DNA of 43,654 nt from SAR324 cluster bacterium (lineage in GTDB: Bacteria > SAR324 > NAC60-12), in assembly GCA_022448485.1 (NCBI GenBank), contig JAKUUI010000013.1, positions 1 to 43,654 of the forward strand, in the 5' to 3' direction. Each line of letters opens with the position of its first letter. Within the stretch, counting starts at the first letter, position 1. Below the pieces are notes generated by a model. The model saw nothing but the letters and a program-made list of their open reading frames with translations. It was not told the origin of the DNA and did not search any database. The translations under genes and the position numbers were made by a program. Shown here piece after piece: positions 16,042 to 32,647 of this stretch.

Positions 16042-16066
16042 TACACTTGCTCTCTAGTAATTATTG

Positions 16067-16858
16067 ATGTTAAAAGAATCTTTAATTGACAAACTTTGGG
16101 TTGCGCTTTTTCGTATTCCTCTAGTGAAAAATTTTTGGGCACGCAGTTATGAAGCAGTGCTCTTTGATCGCGTGCCTTGGACAAAGCTTAACAAACCGCT
16201 TCCAGAATGCAAAATAGCATTATTCACAACTGGTGGTATTCATTTGAAATCCGACGAAGCCTTTGATCTGGATGATCCACACGGAGACAGTTCATTTCGC
16301 CGAATTCCTCATGACGTTTCTCCGGAAGATTTAATAATAAAACATAAATATTATGATCACCGTGACGCAGACCGTGATCCAAATTTGATACTGCCTTTTG
16401 GGGTCTTACGTCAACTGCAAGCTGAAGGCAGAGTTGGTCGCTCCAACAAATATCATTACAGCTTCATGGGGCACATCGAAGAGCCACATCTAACGACTTT
16501 AATCCAAAAAAGTGCAGTTGATGCAGCAAAAGAAATTAAGCAGCAGAAAGTTGATATAGCCCTTTTGGTACCAGCCTGAGGTCTCTGCAACCAGACGGTC
16601 GGTCTGGTTCAACGTGAAGTAGAACGACAGGGCATTTCGACTGTAGGCATATCTATTGTCCGAAAGGTGACTGAGTCGGTCAAACCGCCACGTACCTACC
16701 ACTTGAAATACCCTTTCGGTCATGCCATGGGCGAAGCGTTCAATCTGCCTCAGCAAAAACAGATTTTTCGTGACTGCTTGGAAATACTGGAAACAGCAAC
16801 TGAGCCTGGAATAATCGTCGACAGCCCCTATCGCTGGAGAGGGCATCAGTTTGAATAA
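16067..16858 (+). CDS. Selenocysteine-containing GrdB/PrdB-family protein (in-frame UGA)
   Basis: An ordinary reading breaks this gene at TGA 16577-16579, but the frame continues without another stop to TAA at 16856-16858. Read through, it gives about 263 residues with LLVPA-U-GLCNQTVGLVQRE at Sec 171, the U-x-x-C site of the glycine/betaine/sarcosine/D-proline reductase selenoprotein B family. A hairpin with a GGUC loop lies 17 nt after the UGA. The N-terminal half has LFTTGGIHLK and an EDLIIKHKYYDHRDADRD segment typical of these proteins; the C-terminal half keeps YPFGHAMGEAFN and PYRWRG. No grdA, grdE or other reductase subunits adjoin, so a free-standing redox role is more likely than the full reductase complex. 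The start may be TTG 16064 or ATG 16067. Confidence 0.88.
16580..16609 (+). promoter_or_regulatory. Bacterial SECIS element of the GrdB/PrdB-like gene
   Basis: Within the coding mRNA, AACCAGAC (16589-16596) and GTCTGGTT (16602-16609) pair perfectly over 8 bp around the five-base loop GGTCG. The GG of the loop starts 18 nt after the UGA (17 nt between). A GGU(C) apical loop at that spacing is what SelB recognises in E. coli fdhF/fdnG SECIS elements. It explains why the UGA is decoded rather than read as stop. Confidence 0.85.
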
Positions 16859-31090: not shown

Positions 31091-31309
31091 TCATTTCCGG
31101 ATTATCTTTGTTACTTCTCCAGGCTCCGGAAACCTCGCAAGTTTTTTCTTGGAAAAAACAATTTTTCCATCCACAACCACTTCAAAATCTCCACGTTCTC
31201 CTGAAAGAAGTTCAGAATCCACTGCAAAGGATTCTTTTAATTCCGTAGCCAAACTGACCGCGCTGGGCTCGTAGTTTCAGACCACGCAGTAATATATTTT
31301 GACGTTCAT
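31091..31309 (-). CDS. SelW-like (Rdx family) selenoprotein, 72 aa with in-frame UGA
   Basis: On the minus strand ATG at 31307-31309 opens a 72-codon frame interrupted by a TGA at 31277-31279 and stopped at 31091-31093. Read with Sec at codon 11 it begins MNVKIYYCVVUNYEPSA, which gives the SelW-family CxxU redox motif (C-V-V-U) after a beta strand. The rest fits the small thioredoxin-like Rdx fold, ending GDFEVVVDGKIVFSKKKLA and GEVTKIIRK; SelW proteins share the VDGxxxFSK segment. A GGUC-loop hairpin begins 17 nt after the UGA. It is the last gene of a long leftward run from trpB. The length is normal for SelW. SelW proteins are thought to be glutathione-dependent redox proteins. Confidence 0.85.
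31247..31276 (-). promoter_or_regulatory. Bacterial SECIS element of the SelW-like gene
   Basis: Downstream of the UGA, AGCC-C-AGC pairs with GTT-T-GGCT (7 bp with a central mismatch and a G-U) and leaves the loop GCGGTCA. The GG of the loop is 17 nt from the UGA, the same spacing and the same GGUC as in the GrdB/PrdB-like gene, consistent with one SelB reading both. Confidence 0.75.
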
Positions 31310-31492: not shown

Positions 31493-32128
31493 TTAAACGT
31501 GACTGTTCCCTTGAAGTTTGGCAATTGTGTCGTTGGATAATATCTCTGCAGGTGGAGGTGGGTTTATTTTGCTGGCCAGCAGTGAAAGCAGTTTTTGTCC
31601 TACTTTAAATACACCATAAATAAAAGGCAGGGGTGAAAGTACCTGAATCATTCGGACTATGGAAAAAATTAACATGACTGCCAAAGCAGATAAACCCAAG
31701 GTGAGATCGATTGAATGCTCCAACCAATTTACTGCTAACCTGCCGGCATATCCGTTCTGCCAGAAAAACTCCAATTCAACTGTTTTTATATTGCCGGATA
31801 GTAGGACAACTTCATGGATAATCGAAAGTAAAAAAACAAGAACAAACGCATAATAGGTTCCTGCTAATCCGGAAACCTGGCGAGGTTGGTGCAAAGCTGT
31901 CCTGACAAAAAGCCATGGAAGAAGCAAAGCCGATGGACCAAAAATTTCCAGTAAAGAACCGCCGATTAATGCTCCGACCAACCCCGTCCAGTTCCGAATT
32001 CCTTCTGAAGGATACAACTGATTAAAAACAGTCGGATCCAAAAAATCTGCAGTCAGCATTGACAATAACAGGACTAAACCTATTCCTCCAAAAAACAGAT
32101 AGTCGATGCGTAGCTTGATTGCACTCAT
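31493..32128 (-). CDS. FtsK 4TM-like membrane domain without motor
   Basis: The 211-residue protein has four membrane segments (IGLVLLLSMLTADFL, LVGALIGGSLLEIFG with LLLPWLFV, YYAFVLVFLLSIIHEVVLL, LTLGLSALAVMLIFSIV) in the layout of the FtsK/SpoIIIE N-terminal domain. The NWTGLVGALIGGSLLEIFGPS stretch is close to the FtsK pattern N-x-x-G-x-x-GA-x-x-A-x-x-L-x-x-x-FG. The ATPase and gamma domains are absent: a stop follows INPPPPAEILSNDTIAKLQ. A split FtsK with a separate motor, a decayed remnant or a stand-alone membrane protein are all possible. coaD lies 21 bp upstream. Confidence 0.7.
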   Translation of the reverse strand: MSAIKLRIDYLFFGGIGLVLLLSMLTADFLDPTVFNQLYPSEGIRNWTGLVGALIGGSLLEIFGPSALLLPWLFVRTALHQPRQVSGLAGTYYAFVLVFLLSIIHEVVLLSGNIKTVELEFFWQNGYAGRLAVNWLEHSIDLTLGLSALAVMLIFSIVRMIQVLSPLPFIYGVFKVGQKLLSLLASKINPPPPAEILSNDTIAKLQGNSHV

Positions 32129-32149: not shown

Positions 32150-32647
32150 TTACAAATCAGGATCTTTTTGGATTGCATCATCCACAATTTTTGCCACAGA
32201 TGGCAAAACATAGTCTTCAATTGACTCTCCCAGAAATGCTAATTCACGAACAAGAGTCGAGTTGATGGCAAAAAGGTCCGGTTTTCCAAATAAGCAAAAG
32301 GTTTCAATTTCAGGATCAATACCTTTGTTTCCAACAGCTTGCTGAAATTCCCCCTGAAAATCGTCCAAACTCCTTAATCCTTTCACAATTACCTGCGCTT
32401 TACGTTCTTGCACGTAACGAATAGTTGAGCCTGAGAAGGCTTCAACTGTGACGTTTTTTAGATCGTAATGCTGCACATATTCATTCATCATGCACAAACG
32501 TACTTCTTCAGTAAACATATAGTGCTTTTCCGTATTCATTGCAGCCGACCAAAAAACATGTTCAAACTGCTTCGCAGTTCTCACCAAAATATCAGCATGA
32601 CCATAAGTTGGAGGGTTTGCACTCGTTGGGTAAACAGCAATTCGCAT
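32150..32647 (-). CDS. coaD: Phosphopantetheine adenylyltransferase
   Basis: The 165-residue nucleotidyltransferase transfers AMP from ATP to 4'-phosphopantetheine in CoA synthesis. The motifs are the T/H-x-GH equivalent RIAVYPTSANPPTYGHADIL and, further on, KGLRSLDDFQGEFQQA and SSLV-like NSTLVRELAF. Position R in RGLR is Lys here. Minor departures from the classic GxFDPxTxGH are visible (PTSANPPT), but the fold and length fit. It lies 53 bp after mutS. Confidence 0.88.
   Translation of the reverse strand: MRIAVYPTSANPPTYGHADILVRTAKQFEHVFWSAAMNTEKHYMFTEEVRLCMMNEYVQHYDLKNVTVEAFSGSTIRYVQERKAQVIVKGLRSLDDFQGEFQQAVGNKGIDPEIETFCLFGKPDLFAINSTLVRELAFLGESIEDYVLPSVAKIVDDAIQKDPDL

Follow-up and report, generated by a model that had tools for sequence, protein, structure and literature searches.

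On the minus strand of the window, by which we mean the whole stretch of 43,654 nt analysed here, the locus 31309..31091 almost certainly codes for a SelW-like selenoprotein of the Rdx family, 72 residues long, in which a hairpin is predicted to direct the insertion of selenocysteine (Sec) at an in-frame UGA. The source genome is a SAR324-cluster MAG, 86.9% complete.

The SelW-like gene and its conservation in SAR324

Re-translation of the minus strand with TGA read as U gave a protein that starts at the ATG at 31309 (MNVK), carries the in-frame UGA (31279-31277) as selenocysteine residue 11 in a C-V-V-U motif at residues 8-11, ends in KIIRK, and is followed by a TGA terminator at 31093-31091. 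The complete translation is MNVKIYYCVVUNYEPSAVSLATELKESFAVDSELLSGERGDFEVVVDGKIVFSKKKLARFPEPGEVTKIIRK. The start, motif, UGA position, and length of 72 residues given by the original prediction were all exact. The frame was also predicted to have escaped ORF calling, and we found that none of the window's ORFs of 80 aa or more covers it. The gene was overlooked by ordinary gene finding because the Sec codon resembles a stop.

The protein matched the Pfam family Rdx (PF10262) over the complete profile (1-74 of 74; E 7.3e-19, 68.2 bits compared to a cut-off of 22.6), and scored 95.6 bits with NCBIfam NF041051 (SelT/SelW/SelH), above the curated cut-off of 88, so that the SelW/Rdx identity first proposed for it holds. 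Its nearest sequence relatives with solved structures are Rdx proteins and include human C17orf37/MIEN1 (2LJK), an Agrobacterium protein (2FA8), and mouse SelW (2NPB). Among 19 aligned sequences, Cys8 and residue 11 were invariant.

The relatives of the source genome belong to the SAR324 cluster / Lambdaproteobacteria. A SelW match was detected in 41 of 52 genomes of this phylum, and an in-frame TGA was present in all 43 matches. We read through 33 full-length copies from distinct records, three of which carry the names of other groups in their titles, and found TGA at the CxxU position in every one of them; none had Cys there, although the query of the phylum search carried Cys at this position. 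Downstream of the UGA, same-genus orthologs had a mean pS of 0.51 and a mean pN of 0.11, variable columns numbered 28/17/48 at codon positions 1/2/3, and pairwise dN/dS was about 0.07-0.22 for the pairs with unsaturated dS. Constraint was observed on both sides of the in-frame UGA. The original prediction had staked itself on a frame conserved in relatives and on purifying selection after the UGA, and both were found.

The gene order mutS-coaD-ftsK4TM-selW, convergent with rpsU-pspA-rpoN, is conserved within the genus and extends to a second genus of the same family. The conserved neighbours in the window are the gene of an FtsK_4TM-type membrane protein upstream of selW (31493..32128, minus strand) and a cytidylyltransferase-like gene of the CoaD type (32150..32647, minus strand).

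The SECIS hairpin

A bacterial SECIS is described as a hairpin immediately downstream of the UGA, with G in the first two loop positions and 16-37 nt from the UGA (PMC13188914). The conservation of structure among relatives argues that the SECIS at 31262-31244 (minus strand), with an 8-bp stem and a GUU loop at 31254-31252, is real. In an alignment of 30 distinct homologous sequences, the stem (columns 18-25 with 29-36) was paired in 92.5% of cells compared to 79.6% after shuffling, with 29 two-sided changes, and its covariation score was 0.442, far higher than after shuffling, with at most 0.155 for slid versions of the stem. Because the hairpin region is coding, we used synonymous-codon recoding of every sequence as the null. 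Pairing averaged 65% in the 2000 recoded replicates and stayed below the observed 92.7% in every one of them. Synonymous divergence among same-genus copies was minimal over the hairpin (permutation p about 0.03). RNAalifold gave the region a weak consensus energy, yet all six predicted pairs lay within the conserved stem. The loop triplets were GUU (14), GUC (10), GUG (3), GGU (3), and GGG (1), the first base always being G.

The window hairpin fits the consensus of the same review (PMC13188914) in its stem of 8 pairs (model 4-16), its loop of 3 nt (model 3-9), the G at the start of the loop with U next in most copies, and the UGA-to-loop spacing of 22 nt (model 16-37). The predicted stem energy of the window copy is weaker than the model cut-off of -7.5, whereas the typical form of the relatives reaches -9.5 kcal/mol. 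The GCG codon (Ala) of the relatives is ACG (Thr) in the window copy, which places A opposite C in the conserved stem, and the resulting C.A mismatch (31260/31246), at a pair kept by 27 of the 30 aligned sequences, cuts the predicted stem energy to -3.5 kcal/mol. The hairpin zone of the window copy folds no better than its synonymous recodings. An Rfam scan of the window returned tRNA-Gln only.

A SECIS had been expected within 31247-31276, in the form of a GGUC-loop hairpin. The expectation of a SECIS was right, and the conserved element is a different hairpin, the one at 31262-31244. The hairpin originally drawn (31247..31269, minus strand; loop GCGGUCA) partly overlaps it and is indeed the minimum-free-energy fold of the single window copy, but the relatives do not conserve it: we rejected it as the SECIS since 65.2% of its cells were paired, equal to shuffles, with no covariation. 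According to the predicted energies, this alternative hairpin (-6.5) may compete with the weakened conserved stem in the window copy.

Selenocysteine machinery and alternative readings

The genome itself has an intact selB (378.7 bits) and a selD (350.3 bits) that carries a UGA in its CGU motif. We did not find selA in this 86.9% complete MAG, and the DNA of a relative's selA locus had no match in the genome. Of the 30 other relatives among the 31 genomes searched, 25 have a selA above the cut-off. Intact tRNA-Sec was not detected in the MAG either, and the RF01852 matches of the genome were rejected as candidates, ARAGORN typing them as tRNA-Ser, Leu, Tyr, and others. The same program identified tRNA-SeC(UCA) in six genomes of the genus. 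At the orthologous place, our genome holds a degenerate tRNA-Sec 5' half (G000:C201:12305-12342; L083:1559-1596) that adjoins the gene flanking tRNA-Sec in relatives, with the anticodon TTA instead of TCA and an unrecognisable 3' half. The contig ends 145 nt past this remnant, so an intact copy may sit in an assembly gap.

In the same-genus genome G011, an intact tRNA-Sec and a comparable decayed 5' half lie 1.1 kb apart (L090:181-279 and L090:1373-1409), with a 320-aa lipoprotein-like frame between them. In another genome, G024 (L091), 24 nt of the tRNA 3' end recur about 1.4 kb from the intact tRNA-Sec. The tRNA-Sec gene may be a hotspot of integration or duplication in SAR324.

The simplest reading of the missing selA and tRNA-Sec is an assembly gap, and loss of the trait is the minority reading. 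According to the latter, the selW-like gene worked until recently, Sec decoding is disappearing from this lineage or already gone, and the window copy is now dying, which would agree with the absence of selA and of an intact tRNA-Sec from the MAG, with a tRNA-Sec locus reduced to a half bearing the wrong anticodon, and with the mismatch in the SECIS stem. We regard this as quite unlikely, since selB is intact and selD retains its UGA, the constraint on selW compared to relatives is normal, and the tRNA evidence may have other explanations: G011 pairs a similar degenerate half with an intact gene, our contig breaks off just after the remnant, and tRNA-Sec likewise went undetected in the MAGs of several selA-bearing relatives. 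That the lineage is caught in the middle of the loss, with selA gone, tRNA-Sec a decaying half, and the SECIS weakened while selB, selD, and the UGA-containing genes remain, we hold to be very unlikely.

Cys-type Rdx proteins occur in other bacteria, and the UGA could be a true stop followed by the remains of a CxxC Rdx gene, whether a pseudogene or a sequencing error; conservation already refutes this scarcely credible reading, for 33 copies taken from separate records carry the UGA at the same codon, selection is purifying before and after it, the hairpin is conserved, and no Cys ortholog was seen in the phylum despite the Cys in the query. Genome-wide reassignment of UGA to another residue (code 4 or 25 type) would also let one in-frame UGA be read through, and is refuted with equal force, since TGA ends 11 of the 31 large ORFs of the window, 9 of the 13 selW copies of the genus also terminate in it, and the inner UGA has a specific hairpin downstream.

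For the selenoprotein that we favour, translation would begin at the AUG at 31309, SelB with Sec-tRNA(Sec) would bind the hairpin 31262-31244, 22 nt downstream of the UGA, and selenocysteine would be inserted, whereas the second UGA, without such a hairpin, would terminate the protein. The sequences show the family membership, the UGA kept in relatives, purifying selection downstream of it, a conserved hairpin, and selB and selD in the genome; that the ribosome in the SAR324 organism does insert Sec here is what we infer. What is known of the family and of related proteins suggests that the product is a small thioredoxin-fold thiol/selenol oxidoreductase. Its Cys8 and Sec11 would form a Se-S bond, to be recycled by glutathione or thioredoxin. 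A redox potential of -225 mV is reported for MIEN1 (PMC3527542), and the function of the SelW-like protein has been described as unclear (PMC1088965).

Known SelW-like proteins and the Sec trait of SAR324

The window gene shares with prokaryotic SelW-like selenoproteins (PF10262 Rdx; NF041051 SelTWH, TIGR02174) its length, the N-terminal CxxU, the whole-length profile match, and a bacterial SECIS right after the UGA. Nothing essential differs, apart from a SAR324 branch that is all-Sec among the members read and a weakened SECIS stem in the window copy. Human MIEN1/C17orf37 (2LJK) and Cys-type Rdx proteins such as Atu0228 (2FA8) belong to the same family and have solved thioredoxin-like folds (PMC3527542), but have Cys where the window protein has Sec. 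In the selenoproteomes of the Sargasso Sea and of GOS, SelW-like ranked first among the families in abundance (PMC1088965, PMC2398784), and Sec-containing SelW genes of epsilonproteobacteria, a different phylum, were completely missed by genome annotation (PMC4607533), the same miss as in the window. The prediction of the gene is thus correct, yet of a well-known kind: it is real but ordinary, a member of the commonest and most widespread marine selenoprotein family, and not surprising.

Another UGA-containing gene was noticed in the window at 16064-16846 (plus strand), of the PrdB/GrdB type, with the UGA at about 16577-16579 in a U-G-L-C motif. Its protein matched Pfam GRDB (E 5.9e-12); the best NCBIfam model was TIGR04483 PrdB, under the equivalog cut-off, and TIGR01918 was just over its cut-off. 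By these matches it is probably a PrdB-like selenoprotein, which is another common marine family.

Two SAR324 single-cell genomes have been listed as having an orphan selD without the Sec trait (PMC5029168, Table 1). With selA widespread and tRNA-Sec present in SAR324 genomes, this status may reflect incomplete genomes. The selA, selB, selD, and tRNA-Sec genes, together with SECIS-bearing genes, indicate from genome sequence that the SAR324 cluster does decode Sec. Our results supply a covarying alignment of a compact SECIS whose loop has three bases, as a reference for checking hairpins predicted from single sequences, and extend Sec-containing SelW by a branch that spans the SAR324 phylum.
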